Shown here in pieces: positions 36,645 to 60,587 of a DNA stretch of 64,000 nt. Both the position numbers and the translations under genes were made by a program. The stretch is from Nitrospirota bacterium (GTDB taxonomy: Bacteria; Nitrospirota; Nitrospiria; Nitrospirales; Nitrospiraceae), in assembly GCA_030645475.1 (NCBI GenBank), contig JAUSMA010000017.1:1-64000 (forward strand), in the 5' to 3' direction. The notes under the pieces are model-generated. The model was not told the origin of the DNA, did no database searches, and saw only the letters and a list, made by a program, of their open reading frames with translations. How positions within the stretch are numbered: the stretch's first letter is position 1; each line of letters opens with the position of its first letter.

Positions 36645-36995
<351 letters not shown>

Positions 36996-36997
36996 CG

Positions 36998-39682
36998 ATG
37001 AGTGCCAAACAAGACGTGGTCGACCTGACTGTGCGGGATGGCGATGCGGCGCAGCTTGGCCTCTTTCTGGCCGAGCAGCGCCGTATCATCGGTCAGCGTG
37101 TCATGGGTGGCGCATCGGGCGCCGAGACCCTCGCCGCCATGACCGAGCTCGTCGATGGGTTGATCCTCGGGCGTTATCGCGAGGCGATCCGGCATGGCGG
37201 TGATGCGTTAGCGAACGCGGGTCTTCGCCAATGTTGCGTCATCGCCTTGGGTGGATACGGCCGCCGTGAGTTGGCGCCCCATTCGGATGTCGATCTCATG
37301 TTTCTGTTCCTCCCCGAGGCGAAGTCACAGGTCGAGATGCTGGTGCGTGCGGTCTTGCATCCCTTGTGGGACTCTGGATTTCAGGTCGGACATAGCGTAC
37401 GGACGATTGCCGACTGCATCGAGCTGGCGGAGGCCGATGCGACCGTGAAGACCTCGATGATGGAGTCCCGGTTTCTTGCGGGAAGCCCCGAGTTATTCGA
37501 GCAGTTTCACAGCCGGTATATGCGGAAGGTCGTGGTCAAGAACCCGGATACCTACTTGGATCAGAAACTGGATGAGCGCCGGCGGGAGTACCAGAAGTTC
37601 GGCGAGACGGTATATTTGCTTGAGCCGAATGTCAAGAAAAGCACCGGTGGTCTTCGCGACTTGCACCTGTTGCAATGGGCCGGTATGGCCCGGTATCAGG
37701 CGCCGACGATCCGTGAACTCTCCGATCGCGGCATCCTGTCCAGGGCCGATTCCATCGCCCTCACAGAGGCACGGGATTTCTTGTGGCGAGTCCGGGCGCT
37801 CCTCCATGTCCATGCCGGCACGGCCCAGGAGATTTTGTCGTTCGATGAGCAGATCTGGCTGGCCCAACATTTCGGATTTCAGGACCAGCCGCATTTGTTG
37901 GCCGTCGAACAGTTCATGCAGCAGTATTACCGGCACACGACGGGCTTGCATGAAAGTTGTATGCGGTTTGTCGAGCGTTGTCGGAGCGTGCCGTTTTGGC
38001 GCAGAATCGCGCGGTTCTTGCCGGCGCCCCGCGTCGATGAATACTTCGTAGTCCGGGGCGGGGTGTTGACGGTTGCGGATGAATATCGCGCCAAGGTATT
38101 GGAAAGCCCGGCGTTGCTCCTCCGCCTGTTCGATGTCGCGCGAGCGCGGCGGCTGACCATCGTGCCGCCATTACTCGAAGACATCCACCGCCATGTCGAT
38201 ACGGTCTCGGCGGAGGCCTATCGGACGCCGGAGGTCAATCGCACCTTTCTCGCGATTCTCTCGGGGCCTGGCACCGCCAAGACGCTGGAGGCCATGCATC
38301 GGGCCTCGGTGCTGGAGAAATTGGTTCCCTCGATGAAACGCGTGCGTGGCCTCATGCAGTTCAATCAGTACCATAAGTATACGGTCGACGAGCACAGTTT
38401 GCTTGCGGTGACGCGGGCGGAAGACTTGGCACAGGATCAGGGGGTGATGGGGGACGTCTATCGCAGTATTAAGCGAAAAGATCTGCTCCATCTCGCCGTG
38501 TTGTTCCATGATCTGGGCAAGGGCCAGGAAGAAGATCACAGTGAAGCGGGGAAGCGATTGGTTGAAGAGGCAGCGGTTCGGCTTGGATTCGACGAGCAGG
38601 ACAAGCGCACCCTTGCATTCCTCGTGCAGAAACATTTGCTCATGGCTCACACGGCGTTTCGACGAGACCCGAACGACGTGAAGGTGGTGCTGCCCTTTGC
38701 CCGCGAAGTCGGGACGCCCGAAGTCTTGAAGAAGCTCTTGGTGCTCACGGCCGCGGATATCGCGGCCGTCGGTCCCGGTGTCTTGACCAAGTGGAAAGAA
38801 TCGCTGCTGATCGAACTCTACCAGCGCACGATGTCGGAGGTGTCCGGAGAGCGGAACGGCGTCGGGGCGCCAGAACGGGTTCGCCAGATTGCCGAAGAGG
38901 TGAGCCGGCATCCGCTCATGGCAGGACAATCCGATGGAACATTGGCCTGGGTCGAACAGCAACTGAGCCAATTCCCCGAGCGCTATATCTACGGCACGGT
39001 ATCGTCTCGTATGGCAGCGCATTTGGCGGCCGTGCGGCGATTGCATGTCGGTGAAGTGCTGGTGGAGACGGAGTTCAACGGGGAACTGGGGACCTGCGAA
39101 TATACCGTCGTGGCCCACAATGACGTGACGCCGGGCATGTTCTCGAAGATCGCCGGTGTCATGGCAGGCAGCGGGGTGCAGATTCTCGATGCGCAGATTC
39201 TTACCAGAGCCGACGGGATTGTGGTCGATACGTTCCAGGTGATGGATCCGGACTATCAGGGCGCACCTCCGGCCGAGCGGCTCCGGACGGTGGGCGACCG
39301 GATCGCGTCGGTCCTCAAGGGGTGGGAGCATGTCGATGATGTGCTGCGACGGGGCGCGCGGTTGAAGCTGACGCGATCGCTGCCGAAAGCTCCTGAAGCG
39401 ACGGAGGTGCGGGTCGACAATGAAACGTCGGACGCCTATACGATCATCGATGTCTTTGCCGATGACCGCCAGGGTTTATTGTATGTGATCACGAACACCA
39501 TTTTTCAGCTTGGGTTATCCATCCATGCCGCGCGCATCTCGACGCGCCTGGATCAGGTGGCCGACGTGTTCTACGTCGCCGATCAGCAGGGGAAGAAGCT
39601 GGAGGACCACGGGCAATTGGAGCGGTTACGAACGGGAGTCGAAACGGCCATCGAGAATTTTCTCGAGGCGAAAGCGGCCTAG
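36998..39682 (+). CDS. glnD: PII uridylyltransferase / uridylyl-removing enzyme
   Basis: The protein of about 894 residues has the nucleotidyltransferase motif GGYGRRELAPHSDVDLMF, the GlnD-linker, an HD hydrolase domain (FHDLGKGQEEDHSEAG) and two C-terminal ACT domains (about residues 700-780 and 810-890; second: IIDVFADDRQGLLYVITNTI). It modifies PII according to glutamine. A GTG at 36992 is an alternative start. It follows glnB by 2 bases. Confidence 0.95.
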   Translation: MSAKQDVVDLTVRDGDAAQLGLFLAEQRRIIGQRVMGGASGAETLAAMTELVDGLILGRYREAIRHGGDALANAGLRQCCVIALGGYGRRELAPHSDVDLMFLFLPEAKSQVEMLVRAVLHPLWDSGFQVGHSVRTIADCIELAEADATVKTSMMESRFLAGSPELFEQFHSRYMRKVVVKNPDTYLDQKLDERRREYQKFGETVYLLEPNVKKSTGGLRDLHLLQWAGMARYQAPTIRELSDRGILSRADSIALTEARDFLWRVRALLHVHAGTAQEILSFDEQIWLAQHFGFQDQPHLLAVEQFMQQYYRHTTGLHESCMRFVERCRSVPFWRRIARFLPAPRVDEYFVVRGGVLTVADEYRAKVLESPALLLRLFDVARARRLTIVPPLLEDIHRHVDTVSAEAYRTPEVNRTFLAILSGPGTAKTLEAMHRASVLEKLVPSMKRVRGLMQFNQYHKYTVDEHSLLAVTRAEDLAQDQGVMGDVYRSIKRKDLLHLAVLFHDLGKGQEEDHSEAGKRLVEEAAVRLGFDEQDKRTLAFLVQKHLLMAHTAFRRDPNDVKVVLPFAREVGTPEVLKKLLVLTAADIAAVGPGVLTKWKESLLIELYQRTMSEVSGERNGVGAPERVRQIAEEVSRHPLMAGQSDGTLAWVEQQLSQFPERYIYGTVSSRMAAHLAAVRRLHVGEVLVETEFNGELGTCEYTVVAHNDVTPGMFSKIAGVMAGSGVQILDAQILTRADGIVVDTFQVMDPDYQGAPPAERLRTVGDRIASVLKGWEHVDDVLRRGARLKLTRSLPKAPEATEVRVDNETSDAYTIIDVFADDRQGLLYVITNTIFQLGLSIHAARISTRLDQVADVFYVADQQGKKLEDHGQLERLRTGVETAIENFLEAKAA

Positions 39683-39729: not shown

Positions 39730-41139
39730 ATGAACGTACGTGAAGTGTTGGAGTATGTGAAGAAACATAAAGTCCAGATCGTCGACTTGAAGTTTGTCGA
39801 TCTCATCGGGACCTGGCAGCATTTCAGTATCCCGACGAATGAATTGACGGAGGACCTCTTCAAGGACGGGTCCGGACTGGACGGCTCCTCCATTCGCGGC
39901 TGGAAGGCCATCAACAACAGCGACATGTTGGTCGTGCCGGATCCGTCGACGGCTTGTCTCGATCCGTTCTGTGCGGTCCCGACGCTGAGCCTCATCGGCA
40001 ACGTGGTCGATCCGATCACGCGCGAGACCTACGATCGCGATCCGCGCTATGTCGCCCAGAAGGCGGAGAAATACCTCCAGAGCACGAAGATCGGCGATAC
40101 CTCCTACTGGGGTCCCGAGGCCGAGTTCTTCATTTTCGATCAAGCCCGGTACGATCAGAATGGTCACAGCGGTTACTACTTCATCGACTCCGAAGAAGGC
40201 GTGTGGAACATGGGGCAGGAAGGCCACAACCTGGGCGGCAAAATCCGCCAGAAGGAAGGCTATTTCCCCGTCGCTCCGACCGATACGCAACAGGACATCC
40301 GCAGCGAGATGATTCTGGAGATGGAGAAAGCCGGTATCCAGATCGAGAAGCATCACCACGAAGTCGCCACGGCCGGTCAGGCGGAAATCGATATCCGCTT
40401 CGACTCGCTGGTCAGGACAGCAGACAAAATGATGATGTACAAGTACATCGTCAAGAACGTGGCTCGCCGACATGGCAAGACTGCGACCTTCATGCCGAAG
40501 CCGATTTTCGGCGATAACGGATCGGGCATGCATAGCCACCAGAGCATCTGGAAGGACGGCAAGCCCCTGTTCGCCGGGAAGGAATATGCGGGCGTGTCGC
40601 AGATGTGCCTGCATTACATCGGCGGCATTCTGAAACATGCGCCGGCGCTGGCGGCCTTTACCAATCCCACGACGAACTCCTACAAGCGCTTGACGCCAGG
40701 GTTCGAAGCTCCGGTGTTGTTGGCCTATTCCAGCCGGAATCGGTCGGCCGGCATCCGGATTCCCATGTATTCACCGAGCCCCAAGGCGAAGCGGATCGAG
40801 GTGCGGTTCCCAGACCCGGCCGCGAATCCCTATCTCGCCTTCTCCGCCATGCTCATGGCCGGGTTGGACGGTATCCAGAACAAGATCAACCCCGGTGAAC
40901 CGGCTGAGCAGGATCTCTACGATCTCGAGGCGAAGGCAGCGGCGAAGATTCGAACCATGCCGGGCAGCCTCGACGAAGCGTTGAACAACCTTGAGAAGGA
41001 CCATGAGTTCCTGCTCAAAGGCGGGGTCTTCAGCAAGGACCTGATCGAAGCCTGGATCGGGTACAAGCGGACCAAGGAAGTCGATACCATGCGGTTGCGT
41101 CCGCATCCGTATGAGTTCTACCTCTATTACGACGTCTAG
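39730..41139 (+). CDS. glnA: Glutamine synthetase type I
   Basis: The 469-residue enzyme makes glutamine from glutamate, ammonia and ATP. It has the beta-Grasp start ([14 protein letters not shown]), [11 protein letters not shown], the ATP site [20 protein letters not shown] and the adenylylation tyrosine in [10 protein letters not shown], as expected where GlnE is present. GAAAGGAGAAGGGG precedes the ATG. It ends the porin-amt-gln run. Confidence 0.96.
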
Positions 41140-55701: not shown

Positions 55702-56343
55702 CTAGTCCCACAATCTTTTAGTATCCCTGTATGCAACAAGGACTATGTCTATTGCTTCAAGGGCTGCGGATAGCGCAGCTGTTTTTCCCAGGGTCTTCTC
55801 CAAGTGGCTTTCCCAATTTGCAGTAGGAACATCTCGAAGCAAGATTTGTCCGACTAACTGGCTTGCAAACTGATAGTGAGATTCCGAGATTACTGGCCCT
55901 AGCTCAATCAAGCCGTTGCTATCCATGTCCATAGTTGTGAGCGCTTCTTGTACAGCTTGAAGCTTTACGTGGCCACTGATTTCGTTTCGAATATCTTTAA
56001 GGAGTTCATGTGCAGTCCGTATTTTTTGGACCAGTTCGTTGAATGCTTCTTGGAAATGTCTTGGTTGGGCTAAGAGAGAAGAGCGGAAGCCTTCATCTCC
56101 CTGCAAAGCCTCAAGAGCGCTTCGTATTTCGAACAGGGTTCTGACGGAATTCCTCCAGAAGTACATCAGCCTCCAGGGTGGCGAATTCTTGTCGAGAGAA
56201 GGAATACTTTCCTCCATAAGTGCCATTGTTTCTAAATATAGGTCCTCTCTTAGAATGCAAAGTCTTGCTACTGAAGCAGCAATTGGATCATCACTTGGGA
56301 ACCATTTCCAGAAAAAGATGTGCCGAATGTGTCGTCTACTCAT
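55702..56343 (-). CDS. Hypothetical alpha-helical protein
   Basis: The 213-residue product is mostly helical (SVARLCILREDLYLETMALM, then FWRNSVRTLFEIRSALEALQ). No known family is recognised. The frame is open to 56502, but that part lies in the family B repeat, so the ATG at 56343 is preferred. It converges on the protease gene with a 26-base gap and shares its AT-richer composition, so the two may have arrived together. Confidence 0.6.
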   Translation of the reverse strand: MSRRHIRHIFFWKWFPSDDPIAASVARLCILREDLYLETMALMEESIPSLDKNSPPWRLMYFWRNSVRTLFEIRSALEALQGDEGFRSSLLAQPRHFQEAFNELVQKIRTAHELLKDIRNEISGHVKLQAVQEALTTMDMDSNGLIELGPVISESHYQFASQLVGQILLRDVPTANWESHLEKTLGKTAALSAALEAIDIVLVAYRDTKRLWD

Positions 56344-56433
56344 TCTGGTTGAGGGGTAAGTAGAAGTGGGAGGGAGTCTGTTCGCACTGCTGTATTCATG
56401 CGTTTTCACCGTTTCTCTAGAGGGCGGGCTAGA

Positions 56434-56492
56434 TGGTCTCCCATTGCGCGTGTCCAACGAGGGGATTCTTAGACCGCGCGTTGCACGAGCAC
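56434..56492 (+). repeat. Interspersed intergenic repeat, family B (compact copy)
   Basis: Two blocks, 56434-56462 and 56468-56492, match in reverse complement the blocks at 48074-48102 and 47911-47935. Here they are adjacent. It lies between the hypothetical gene and the glnE-like gene. Confidence 0.65.
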
Positions 56493-56513
56493 AGGAGCCC
56501 ATCTAGTCTGTCC

Positions 56514-58784
56514 TCACACCTTTCCAAACGTCCTCTCAAAAAACTCCCTCGTCTTTCCCATATGCTGCTCGATATCCGACTGCAAATGCCTCGCTCCTGC
56601 CTGCCAATCATCTGTAGCATAGCCGACACGGCGGGCGAGGAAGATGAACTCCTCTGAGTCGGGCGGAGGGAGTACCAGATCCTTGGCGTTGCCGCGGACC
56701 ATGCGCAATCCGTCGATCAAGGTTCGGGTGAAGACGTAGGCTTTCCGGAGGCTTTCCCCATCGGCACGTGTGACCAATCCTGCCTCCACCAGGGCTGCGA
56801 GGGCCTGCAGGGTATTCGGGGTGCGGAGGCTTGGGCGCCCGTGCCCATGCATCACTTGGAGATACTGCACCGCATATTCGATATCGATGACCCCGCCCTG
56901 GCTGTATTTCACGTTGACCTGGCCCGGTTTGACCAGTTGTTGGAGCTGTTGCTTCCGGAGGTCCAGTGCCGTGGGGATGTCCCAGGGGGCTCCGCCATAG
57001 ACGAACGAATCCCGGTAGGCTTCCAGTCGATGTCCTAATGCAGCATCGCCCGCGATATGCCGTAGCTTGATGAGGGCTTGCCGTTCGTAGGGGGCGGCGA
57101 GTCCTGTTGGACTATAGTAGCGGCAGACTTCCTCGAAGGCATTGGCCAATGAGCCCTTGCCTCCATGCGGGCGCAATCGCACGTCGAGATGAAAGATGCC
57201 TTCCTGCTTGGCTTCGATCCAACCCAGGAGTTCCTGCGTCAGCCGTTCGAAGAATTCGCTGTTCTCAATTCCATTTTTCCCGCTGGTCTTGCCCGATCCT
57301 TCATAGATGAACAGCACTTCGATATCTGAGGCATAGCCGAGCTCCCGCCCTCCTAATTTCCCCAGGCCGAGGACGGCAAAGGGGCAGGGCTTCTTATCGG
57401 CGAGTCGCGGCTTTCCATAGGTCTTCTCCAGCTTGGCTCGGCAATCGGTAACGCTCCGTTCCATGATGACCTCGGCCAGTTCCGTAAGCGCGAGCGAAAA
57501 GTCGGGGAGATTGCTTGAGGGTTCGACGATATGTTTCATGTCGATCCGGAAGAGTTCGCGATCCTTAAACTGGTTCAGCGCTTCCTTGCGCGCCTCGTCC
57601 GTTTTGGTGCGAGCGACTAGCCGGTCGAGTTCCTTCCGGAGGGTGGCTCGCGGCTTGATGAGGGGCGCATCCCGGTATTCCGCGAGCAGGGGCAGGAGGT
57701 TGCCATGTTGGCGGCGCAGAAAGTCTTCCCACAAGTAGTCGCTGGCACCGAGGAGCCGTGCGAGGAGGGGAAAGGTTTTCTTGTCGCTGATGACGTCGAG
57801 CGCCTGCTGTTTTCCCTTCTTGCCCGTTTCGGCGACGATGAGATCCAGGAATTGGTCGAACGATTCGAGCGCCTTGCCCGGATCGGGAGCCCAGGTCAGG
57901 GCATGGGTGAATTGTTTGATGAGCACGGCGGTCAGGCGCAGTTGCTGCTGATCGGCCGGGTCGAGGAGCTTTTGCCCATAACGGTTCCTGACGTGGAAAC
58001 GGTCGTGGAGTTTGGTCCCGTCGTTTTCGAACTGGGCCTTGGTGATGTAGATGTTGCGCATGGCCAGGGCATTGGCAAAGGCATAGAGGAAGGCCGGGGT
58101 GTCATCCGACCGGATGTCCATGATCGTGTCCGTCTGCGACTGACTGTTGTCGAAGGTGATCTGGACGGTGTGGAGGAGCCCCGTGAAGGCGCTCCGCTGT
58201 TTTCCCAATCGTTCGACCAGGCGTCGGTTCACTTGTTGGCGGGCCTCTTCGAATTGTCCGGCATCGAGGAGCTGGATCATGTGGGTGAGCGCCTCTGCAA
58301 GGGCGGTCCGCTCGGGCGCGGAGAAGCGCTCGCCACTCACCGGATGCACGAGGAAGACATCGACGATCTTCTTGCGGCTCAGGCCCGGGCGGCCTGTGGG
58401 ACGTTTCGAGGGCCAGGCTGTAGCAGGCCGAGCCGGCGGGGCTGCAACATCGGCAAAGGTATAGATGCGGCCCTCTTCGATATTCAGGCCGAAGGCGGAG
58501 AGGAGGCCGCAGATCGTGGCGAACTCGGAGAAGTAGTCGTAGGCGACAAGGCTGATTTCCGATTGCCCTGCTTGCCGGTCGAGCACCGAGAGTTCGCAGG
58601 GGTGTTCCGGGGTGAGTCTGTCGGCAAGCTTGATATGGTGGGCGATGGCGTTCGGTTGAAACCGCTCGAAGTACTCGGGGTCCATCCGTGACACGAAGTC
58701 CCGCAGCACCTCATCTTCGACATCAGGACAGAGGGGGGCCAAGGTCTTGATCAGGGACTCGCGTGCTCCCGATTCATCCGTCAT
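56514..58784 (-). CDS. GlnE-family nucleotidyltransferase with N-terminal tandem ACT-like domains
   Basis: The product of about 756 residues ends with a GlnE-type catalytic domain (about 340-756; motif GLGKLGGRELGYASDIEVLF at about 473-492, then HLDVRLRPHGGKGSLA). The N-terminal 270 residues look like two ACT domains: SLVAYDYFSEFATICGLLSA (about 79-98) and MDIRSDDTPAFLYAFANALA (about 222-241). The second aligns by eye with the last ACT domain of GlnD at 39430-39670. Normal GlnE has two catalytic halves and no ACT domain. The start could also be ATG 58814; 58784 is chosen because TATACT (58792-58797 on the minus strand) sits just before it. Role: adenylylation or deadenylylation of glutamine synthetase (inference). 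Confidence 0.88.
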   Translation of the reverse strand: MTDESGARESLIKTLAPLCPDVEDEVLRDFVSRMDPEYFERFQPNAIAHHIKLADRLTPEHPCELSVLDRQAGQSEISLVAYDYFSEFATICGLLSAFGLNIEEGRIYTFADVAAPPARPATAWPSKRPTGRPGLSRKKIVDVFLVHPVSGERFSAPERTALAEALTHMIQLLDAGQFEEARQQVNRRLVERLGKQRSAFTGLLHTVQITFDNSQSQTDTIMDIRSDDTPAFLYAFANALAMRNIYITKAQFENDGTKLHDRFHVRNRYGQKLLDPADQQQLRLTAVLIKQFTHALTWAPDPGKALESFDQFLDLIVAETGKKGKQQALDVISDKKTFPLLARLLGASDYLWEDFLRRQHGNLLPLLAEYRDAPLIKPRATLRKELDRLVARTKTDEARKEALNQFKDRELFRIDMKHIVEPSSNLPDFSLALTELAEVIMERSVTDCRAKLEKTYGKPRLADKKPCPFAVLGLGKLGGRELGYASDIEVLFIYEGSGKTSGKNGIENSEFFERLTQELLGWIEAKQEGIFHLDVRLRPHGGKGSLANAFEEVCRYYSPTGLAAPYERQALIKLRHIAGDAALGHRLEAYRDSFVYGGAPWDIPTALDLRKQQLQQLVKPGQVNVKYSQGGVIDIEYAVQYLQVMHGHGRPSLRTPNTLQALAALVEAGLVTRADGESLRKAYVFTRTLIDGLRMVRGNAKDLVLPPPDSEEFIFLARRVGYATDDWQAGARHLQSDIEQHMGKTREFFERTFGKV

Positions 58785-58791
58785 GGCCACG

Positions 58792-58797
58792 AGTATA
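58792..58797 (-). promoter_or_regulatory. -10 box candidate for the ACT-GlnE gene
   Basis: TATACT on the minus strand lies eight bases before the ATG at 58784. There is no convincing -35 and no ribosome-binding site, so a leaderless transcript is possible. Confidence 0.4.
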
Positions 58798-58836
58798 GCC
58801 GAAGCTGGCTTCATTGTGTGAGTGGGGGATGGCCGG

Positions 58837-58842
58837 TATAAT
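58837..58842 (+). promoter_or_regulatory. -10 box candidate for the second GlnE-family gene
   Basis: A perfect TATAAT lies eight bases before the ATG at 58851, with a partial -35 (TTGTGT) 17 bases upstream. No ribosome-binding site is seen, so the mRNA may be leaderless. It mirrors the arrangement on the other strand. Confidence 0.55.
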
Positions 58843-58850
58843 GCCCGCCC

Positions 58851-60587
58851 ATGACTGATCGTCGCAAGAAGCCGGTGACGCGCGCTGCGCCAGTTCTTCC
58901 GGAACGAGAGCCGGTCGCGCGACCGGATCCCACCCCCATTATTTTAGCGTCAGGGCTGGACCAGGGCCAGGCTGAGGCGATCCTTCGATCCTACGGACTC
59001 AACCGGATTCAAGAAGCCGATGCGAATCTGCAGTCGATGGCCGGTGAGCCGCACCAGCGACATCAGTTGGCCGGCATCCTGCCCTTGTTGCTTGAGGCGA
59101 TTGGCCGGACCGCCGATCCGGATCAGGCCTTGAACCATTGGGAACGGTGGCTCGGCAGCGGGGTCAACCGGTCTGCCATTCTGGAATATCTGCGCAGCTC
59201 TCCCCGCATGTTGGACCTGGTCTGTTCGATTTTCGGGAACAGCGACTCGCTGGCCTTCACCCTCGTCCGCGATCCTCTGCTGATCTACTGGCTGGCCGAG
59301 CAGAATGTCTTGTCCACGGCTCCGACCAGGGTCGGGATGGAGCGAGCGGTCCGGCAACAGGTCGGGCTGGTGCTGGCGACGGAGCTCAAGTTGGATGCAC
59401 TCAGACGCTTCCGCCGCCGCGAGATGCTGCGGATCGGCGTGCGGGATCTGCTTCGCCTGGCGGATGTAGTGGAAACGACGGCGTCCCTTTCGGATTTGGC
59501 GTCGATCCTGATCGACGAGGCCTATCGCATTGTGGATGCTGATCTACGGGCCCGGTATGGCGTTCCCATGCATAAGAATCGGCAAGGGCGCTGGGTGGAG
59601 ACCGGCTTCACCGTCATCGGGATGGGGAAGCTGGGTGGGCATGAGCTGAACTACAGTTCCGATGTGGATGTGCTCTATGTCTGCGAATCCCATGAGGGGG
59701 AAACCAGGCCGGTTGTATCAGGCCGCACGAAATTGAAAAGCCCAGCGCAGGGCGGGATCTCCAACGAAGAATACTTTGAGCGTCTGGCGCGCGATCTGAC
59801 GAAGGTCCTGACCGAACAGACCCATGAAGGGTATGTTTATCGGGTGGACCTCCGCTTGCGGGGGGAAGGTTCGGTGGGACAGCTCACTCGCTCGCTGGAC
59901 GACTATGCCAAGTACTATCGGACCAGAGGGCAGGTCTGGGAGCGGCTGTCCCTGCTGAAGGCCTGGCCGGTAGCCGGGTCCATGACGGTCGGGAAGGCCT
60001 TCATCAAGATGGTGCAACCATTTGTGTTAGCGCCTTCATCGAAACGCCTGGACGTCGAGCAGGGGCTCGCGGTGGTGAACGAGGTGCGGTCGGTTAAGGA
60101 GAAGATCGATGCGAAGATGGCGGAGCGCGGGCATGAGCAGCGCAATGTGAAGCTCGGCGTCGGCGGCATTCGCGAGATCGAGTTCTTTGTGCAAACGATC
60201 CAGGTGCTGGCGGGGAGTCGGGTGCCGGCTCTCCTTGACCGCAGCACGCTCGATGCGCTCAAGCGATTTGTCCGCCTCAAGTTGATTTCCGGCAAGGAGC
60301 GGGATGCGCTGGCGGCTGCCTACGTCTTTCTTCGTGACGTGGAGCACAAACTACAGATGGTGCATGATCTGCAGACGCATTCGCTCCCGGATCAAGAAGA
60401 CGAACTCGAACGTTGTGCAATCCGAATGGGCTATGACGGGACCGATCGACCGGCTGCGCTCACAGAGTTTCAAGCCGACCATGCCGCCCATCGCACTCTC
60501 GTGCATGACATTTTCCGTTCGTTCTTCGACAGCCCCAAGACCTCTCCCCACTTCAAGGCGACGTTGCGCGCCGTGAGCGATCGCTAG
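58851..60587 (+). CDS. glnE: GlnE-family nucleotidyltransferase, single catalytic domain
   Basis: The 578-residue product has the GlnE N-terminal region (LEYLRSSPRMLDLVCSIFGN, then LAFTLVRDPLLIYWLAE) and one nucleotidyltransferase domain with GMGKLGGHELNYSSDVDVLY (D271 and D273) and VYRVDLRLRGEGSVGQL, followed by the helical domain (GGIREIEFFVQTIQVLAGSR). It corresponds to one half of a normal GlnE of about 950 residues. It is transcribed away from the ACT-containing homologue at 56514. Together they probably supply the adenylylating and deadenylylating activities (inference). Confidence 0.9.
   Translation: MTDRRKKPVTRAAPVLPEREPVARPDPTPIILASGLDQGQAEAILRSYGLNRIQEADANLQSMAGEPHQRHQLAGILPLLLEAIGRTADPDQALNHWERWLGSGVNRSAILEYLRSSPRMLDLVCSIFGNSDSLAFTLVRDPLLIYWLAEQNVLSTAPTRVGMERAVRQQVGLVLATELKLDALRRFRRREMLRIGVRDLLRLADVVETTASLSDLASILIDEAYRIVDADLRARYGVPMHKNRQGRWVETGFTVIGMGKLGGHELNYSSDVDVLYVCESHEGETRPVVSGRTKLKSPAQGGISNEEYFERLARDLTKVLTEQTHEGYVYRVDLRLRGEGSVGQLTRSLDDYAKYYRTRGQVWERLSLLKAWPVAGSMTVGKAFIKMVQPFVLAPSSKRLDVEQGLAVVNEVRSVKEKIDAKMAERGHEQRNVKLGVGGIREIEFFVQTIQVLAGSRVPALLDRSTLDALKRFVRLKLISGKERDALAAAYVFLRDVEHKLQMVHDLQTHSLPDQEDELERCAIRMGYDGTDRPAALTEFQADHAAHRTLVHDIFRSFFDSPKTSPHFKATLRAVSDR

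Follow-up and report, generated by a model that had tools for sequence, protein, structure and literature searches.

A GlnE split into two divergent genes, one fused to a GlnD-type ACT pair, in the class Nitrospiria

Two GlnE halves at a divergent locus

The first 64,000 nucleotides of contig JAUSMA010000017.1 (hereafter, the window), part of a 132.5-kb contig in the 3.75-Mb genome assembly GCA_030645475.1 of a Nitrospirota bacterium from the class Nitrospiria, contain two divergent genes of the GlnE family, which we call LARGE and SMALL (Table 1). GlnE is the textbook case of two opposed activities, a deadenylylase (AR) and an adenylyltransferase (AT), in one chain, and it is controlled by PII and, in Escherichia coli, by glutamine. 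In the window, each of the two proteins contains exactly one PF03710 and one PF08335 domain, neither protein holds two halves in one chain, and the scores of 202 bits (LARGE) and 336 bits (SMALL) fell far under the curated GlnE cut-offs of 487–724 bits. The GlnE fold of LARGE was supported by structure matches to 1v4a and 3k7d (E about 1e-18). Compared with GlnE (E. coli b3053; PDB 1v4a and 3k7d), both catalytic halves, the helical domains and, apart from the DxD of LARGE, the conserved motifs are present here, but they are distributed over two proteins from two divergent genes, and the catalytic half of LARGE has DxE for DxD and is preceded by a GlnD-type ACT pair. The original prediction, made from the DNA letters alone, described two back-to-back proteins with a single GlnE catalytic domain each, and both open reading frames (ORFs) proved to be as described.

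The same prediction named a full-length GlnE elsewhere in the genome as a finding that would speak against it. We searched the genome for such a gene and found none. Since PF03710 matches were confined to LARGE, SMALL and, weakly, glnD, and since the assembly is 99.9% complete, the genome has no full-length GlnE. LARGE and SMALL are two GlnE halves encoded as separate proteins.

Reference halves came from 27 two-domain GlnEs, that of E. coli and 26 of phylum members not belonging to the class Nitrospiria, each cut into its AR and AT parts. SMALL grouped with the AR halves, with support of 100/98 in one tree and 92/92 in a GlnD-rooted tree, and the AR profile was the better one by 37–124 bits in 15 of 15 SMALL sequences. 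By tree, profiles and motifs, SMALL is the AR (deadenylylase) half.

Table 1. Features of the GlnE pair and of related nitrogen genes in the window (aa, amino acids)
Feature	Coordinates	Strand	Description
LARGE	56514..58814	-	766 aa, ACT-ACT-GlnE (AT-like); intact ORF, one PF03710 and one PF08335
SMALL	58851..60587	+	578 aa, lone GlnE half, AR (deadenylylase) type by profile and tree; intact ORF
Intergenic gap	58815..58850	.	36 bp between the divergent start codons of LARGE and SMALL
GlnD C-terminal region in LARGE	57915..58724	-	residues about 31–300: post-HD helices, ACT1, ACT2
ACT1 of LARGE	58263..58562	-	residues about 85–184; AlphaFold2 secondary structure
ACT2 of LARGE	57906..58127	-	residues about 230–303; PF24931 match at 218–293, AlphaFold2
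ACT2 loop P240-A-F-L243 of LARGE	58086–58097	-	
GlnE nucleotidyltransferase domain of LARGE	57021..57764	-	PF03710, E 4e-44
Catalytic D497-I-E499 of LARGE	57318–57326	-	
GlnD_UR_UTase helical domain of LARGE	56529..56924	-	residues 631–762; PF08335, E 3e-16
PF03710 domain of SMALL	59220–60005	+	residues 124–385, E 4e-59
PF08335 domain of SMALL		+	residues 414–559, E 3e-28
PII (glnB/glnK)	36657..36995	+	PF00543, E 3.8e-30; T-loop Tyr in RGQEY
glnD, complete	36992..39682	+	Pfam; two ACT domains of its own, loops TPGMF and RQGLL
glnA	39730..41139	+	adenylylation Tyr397 in DLYDLE; single glutamine synthetase gene of the genome
Nitrogen-assimilation region	29136–51517		dense run of nitrogen-related genes

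The GlnD-type ACT pair of LARGE

Residues 31–293 of LARGE matched the C-terminus of GlnD, the PII uridylyltransferase/uridylyl-removing enzyme (NCBIfam TIGR01693, positions 614–842, E 1.9e-20; PRK05092, E 1.7e-23), a span wider than residues 60–275, in which the original prediction had seen a resemblance to the tandem ACT domains of GlnD. In an alignment with 26 GlnDs, LARGE covered the helix that follows the HD domain (RMDPEYF..F.P..IA.H), ACT1 and ACT2, and extended up to the GlnD C-terminus. A GlnD comprises a nucleotidyltransferase (NTase) domain, an HD domain and two ACT domains, whereas LARGE lacks the NTase and HD domains of GlnD, shares with it only the post-HD segment and the two ACT domains, and coexists with a separate, complete GlnD. 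AlphaFold2, given a 16-sequence alignment, predicted two beta-alpha-beta-beta-alpha units in the N-terminal region (predicted local distance difference test, pLDDT, 82; predicted template modelling score 0.80), and the prediction for full-length LARGE agreed with two ACT units (pLDDT 82.5). When the PDB was searched with Foldseek, the first match was the tandem-ACT region of the large glutamate dehydrogenase (E 1e-5), and the next were IlvA, SerB2, a GcvR-like protein and ACT-like domains. Because Foldseek matches past the first five had E values above 0.001, we base the fold call jointly on the structure prediction, the sequence matches and the glutamate dehydrogenase matches. These data support an ACT fold for the N-terminal region of LARGE; structure prediction had been proposed as a check of the original prediction, and the fold was found.

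The ACT pair of LARGE differs from that of GlnD in several respects. Between its beta2 and beta3, ACT1 is interrupted by a disordered insert rich in Pro and Arg, and between ACT1 and ACT2 lies an additional conserved helix (EAR..VNRR) that GlnD lacks. The Gly in the beta1-alpha1 loop of ACT2 was present in 26 of 26 GlnDs but was replaced by Ala in all 12 LARGE sequences aligned with them, and the loop reads (T/S)-P-A-F-L over 107 LARGE loci. At the corresponding column of ACT1, Gly was found in 24 of the 26 GlnDs and Ser or Ala in LARGE, where D-Y-F-(S/A), again over 107 loci, replaces the P-G loop of GlnD. The conserved Gly of the ACT ligand loop is therefore missing from both ACT domains of LARGE; since the ACT1 Gly is also missing from E. 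coli GlnD, which has Tyr in its place, only the ACT2 change is diagnostic. In a tree of ACT regions, all LARGE sequences fell on one very long branch; because this branch hides the donor, the GlnD of the class itself could not be assigned as the source of the pair. GlnD-like ACT pairs outside GlnD also occur in the plant ACR family, in ACR11 and ACR12, but these proteins have no nucleotidyltransferase fusion and keep the loop Gly (PMC3173338). ACR11 is co-expressed with the chloroplast glutamine synthetase (GS) gene GLN2 (PMC3173338).

Distribution and gene neighborhood

The original prediction had also proposed a survey of the fusion across genomes. Using an ACT-region profile, we surveyed 270 genomes of the class Nitrospiria and found the ACT-GlnE fusion in 220 of them, including 157 of the 177 good ones. 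Among 396 genomes of the phylum, all 150 fusion positives fell within the class, and among 148 phylum genomes the fusion was present in class members, whereas in those of the others that have GlnE the match was limited to the catalytic part. No phylum genome searched outside the class has the fusion; GlnE there occurred mostly in frames of about 940–1060 aa, typical of two-domain GlnE. Two frames of 1306 and 1311 aa from outside the class (L048 and L071) were considered as longer fusions and rejected, because the ACT profile did not match them and their extra N-terminus is apparently upstream sequence translated as part of a stop-to-stop frame.

The best 80 of 174 relatives were scanned at the contig level with patterns specific to the LARGE/SMALL family. 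By title, these contigs belonged to Nitrospira or Nitrospirota, save one labelled Nitrosospira (L134), which is probably a mislabelling, and the partner gene was adjacent and on the opposite strand in all 80 named contigs. With patterns so specific and the best 80 of 174 relatives covered, an independent ACT-GlnE fusion may still exist in another phylum. All 119 loci compared had LARGE and SMALL on opposite strands. At one locus (L039, genome G119) the two genes stand tail to tail, not head to head, and at another (L043, genome G018) SMALL was split over two reading frames and LARGE matched in two pieces, breaks that reflect assembly error or decay. In family f2 (G065, G081 and G125) glnA immediately adjoins LARGE, and in most of the genomes of family f1 that were checked, about 10–20 kb separate it from glnD and glnA.

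None of 46 class genomes without the fusion had a full-length GlnE; a few had a SMALL-type frame or fragments, and many had glnD only. Because these fusion-negative genomes also lack a full-length GlnE, the LARGE/SMALL pair was probably lost on several occasions, and the simplest account places both the split and the fusion at the base of the class. The split GlnE with its fusion characterizes the class as a whole. This conservation rules out a misassembly or an oddity of one genome, and an artefact of frameshift, misassembly or chance similarity is a negligible prospect: nothing in the window points to one, and the broken SMALL at L043 is the single such case among the relatives, set against the same architecture in 220 genomes, the absence of internal stops, E values down to 1e-141 and both genes in all of the 80 named Nitrospirota contigs among the best 80 of 174 relatives.

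The gene for PII, a complete glnD and the single glnA all lie inside the window, within a run of nitrogen-related genes that comprises nadE (glutamine-dependent NAD synthetase, with a glutaminase domain), a GAF-ANTAR regulator, a porin, two ammonium transporters (amtB), PII, glnD, glnA, a nitrate-type ATP-binding cassette transporter (NMT1, permease and ATPase) and a formate/nitrite (FNT) channel. The run ends with an assimilatory nitrite reductase-like protein and a two-component system, and the GlnE pair follows. As originally predicted, the adenylylation Tyr is present in the glnA of the window (Tyr397), which encodes the sole GlnA of the genome. Three more PII-family matches were found outside the window (C6, C29 and C61), of which two sit in longer frames of 205 and 215 aa. 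On the strand of LARGE and 11 bp downstream of it, an ORF of 266 aa (55702–56502, minus strand) showed no Pfam match, and none of the fetched loci contained a relative; this orphan may be co-transcribed with LARGE. A TATAAT sequence stands in the intergenic gap, 8 bases 5′ of the SMALL start codon, a position from which the SMALL mRNA would be nearly leaderless, and a consensus promoter scan reported no promoter there.

Assignment of LARGE and control of glutamine synthetase

LARGE was placed beside the AT halves in the GlnD-rooted tree (83/67), and the AT profile was the better one by 10–45 bits in 15 of 15 sequences. LARGE and the AT halves also have in common the motifs DIE(Y/F)..QYL and, in most lineages, RLRPxGxKG. 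These results give moderate support to LARGE as the AT (adenylyltransferase) half, so that the genome would hold both halves of GlnE, with SMALL strongly and LARGE moderately assigned. If GlnA is adenylylated at all, LARGE is the sole candidate for the reaction, since the genome has no other GlnE.

We therefore favor, at a probability of about 0.62, a reading in which SMALL is the AR enzyme, LARGE is the AT enzyme acting on GlnA Tyr397, and the ACT pair is a regulatory module of LARGE. SMALL would remove adenosine monophosphate (AMP) from Tyr397 and LARGE would add it. The AT activity would be set by the ACT pair, working beside PII and GlnD and responding to a small molecule that is most likely an amino acid, either glutamine or one closely related to it. 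Because the genome still has a complete GlnD whose ACT loops are intact, the fused pair would add to the GlnD sensor, not replace it. Glutamine sensing is attributed to the ACT domains of E. coli GlnD (PMC3173338). Adenylylation of GS by GlnE is promoted by unmodified PII in Rhodospirillum rubrum (PMC3480911), and a title in the reference list of the same paper describes R. rubrum GlnE as responsive to unmodified PII and 2-oxoglutarate and as unresponsive to glutamine; effector use thus varies. The putative ligand of LARGE could be glutamine or a different amino acid, or LARGE may bind none, and its ligand binding, direction of control, dependence on PII and complex formation with SMALL are all putative. 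More specifically, GlnE may have been broken in two and its AT half placed under an ACT pair with a reshaped pocket, so that an amino-acid signal, sensed by the modifying enzyme itself, would switch GS off, in parallel to PII or bypassing it; we advance this version tentatively, as somewhat less probable than its opposite.

Several observations weigh against the favored reading. The LARGE branch is long (1.27), and its placement with the AT halves is supported at 83/67 only. At 15 columns diagnostic of AR or AT, LARGE agrees with AT at 5 and with AR at 5, and the AR crystal structure 1v4a matches the LARGE fold as well as the AT structure does. For these reasons the AT assignment is favored and not proven. 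Of the GlnE catalytic motifs GxGKLGG..DxD and D.RLRP, SMALL retains DxD and LARGE has D-I-E; at the second catalytic acid Glu occurred in 15 of 15 LARGE sequences, compared with Asp in 69 of 69 AR, AT and SMALL sequences, so that DxE replaces DxD throughout LARGE. A Glu at this position is tolerated in other NTases. The loss of the ACT2 loop Gly implies that ligand binding is possibly lost or changed. Class members without either GlnE half (G276, G300, G305, G307, G313 and others) keep glnD, and they keep GlnA Tyr397 wherever it is readable. Since genomes without any GlnE still have this Tyr, it is uninformative about a link to GlnE, and we dropped it as a test of co-evolution.

The loss of the loop Gly bears directly on the mechanism first proposed. 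That prediction was borne out in its split GlnE, its GlnD-type ACT fusion, the absence of another GlnE and the GlnA Tyr; direct glutamine sensing by way of the fusion, as claimed there, found no support in that form, with Ala for the ACT2 loop Gly in every LARGE and Ser or Ala in ACT1. The same loss would suit a rather unlikely alternative, in which the ACT pair is no longer a ligand sensor but a protein-binding or dimerization module that docks, for example, to SMALL, PII or the GlnD ACT domains and rejoins what was formerly a single chain. ACT domains commonly pair side by side, the EAR..VNRR helix between them is missing from GlnD, and LARGE and SMALL are neighbors in all loci examined, all of which would fit docking. 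However, the fixed loops D-Y-F-(S/A) and (T/S)-P-A-F-L in 107 loci fit a pocket with a changed ligand as well, and E. coli GlnD likewise lacks the ACT1 Gly. The long branch, the equal AR and AT counts, the DxE in all members and the membership of residues 31–300 in a family of PII-modifying enzymes could also mean that LARGE evolves fast and acts on another target or catalyzes another reaction, such as the modification of PII or another protein. We consider this improbable, because the AT profile was preferred in every sequence compared, glnA adjoins LARGE in family f2, GlnD is kept for PII, and an AR partner without any AT would have no substrate. On balance, we retain SMALL as the AR half and LARGE as the likely AT half with a putatively regulatory ACT pair.

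Among open-licence papers, we found none describing a split GlnE or an ACT-GlnE fusion, and nothing on glnE in Nitrospira; automatic database annotation of the two proteins very likely exists. The split GlnE with its ACT fusion is a real and conserved variant of the GlnE/GlnD cascade that has apparently not been described before. A class of ecologically central nitrifiers would thus have AR and AT as separate proteins, with a sensor-type module added to one of them. The pair would offer a natural system for assaying AR and AT apart, and the control of GS in Nitrospira becomes a testable question.

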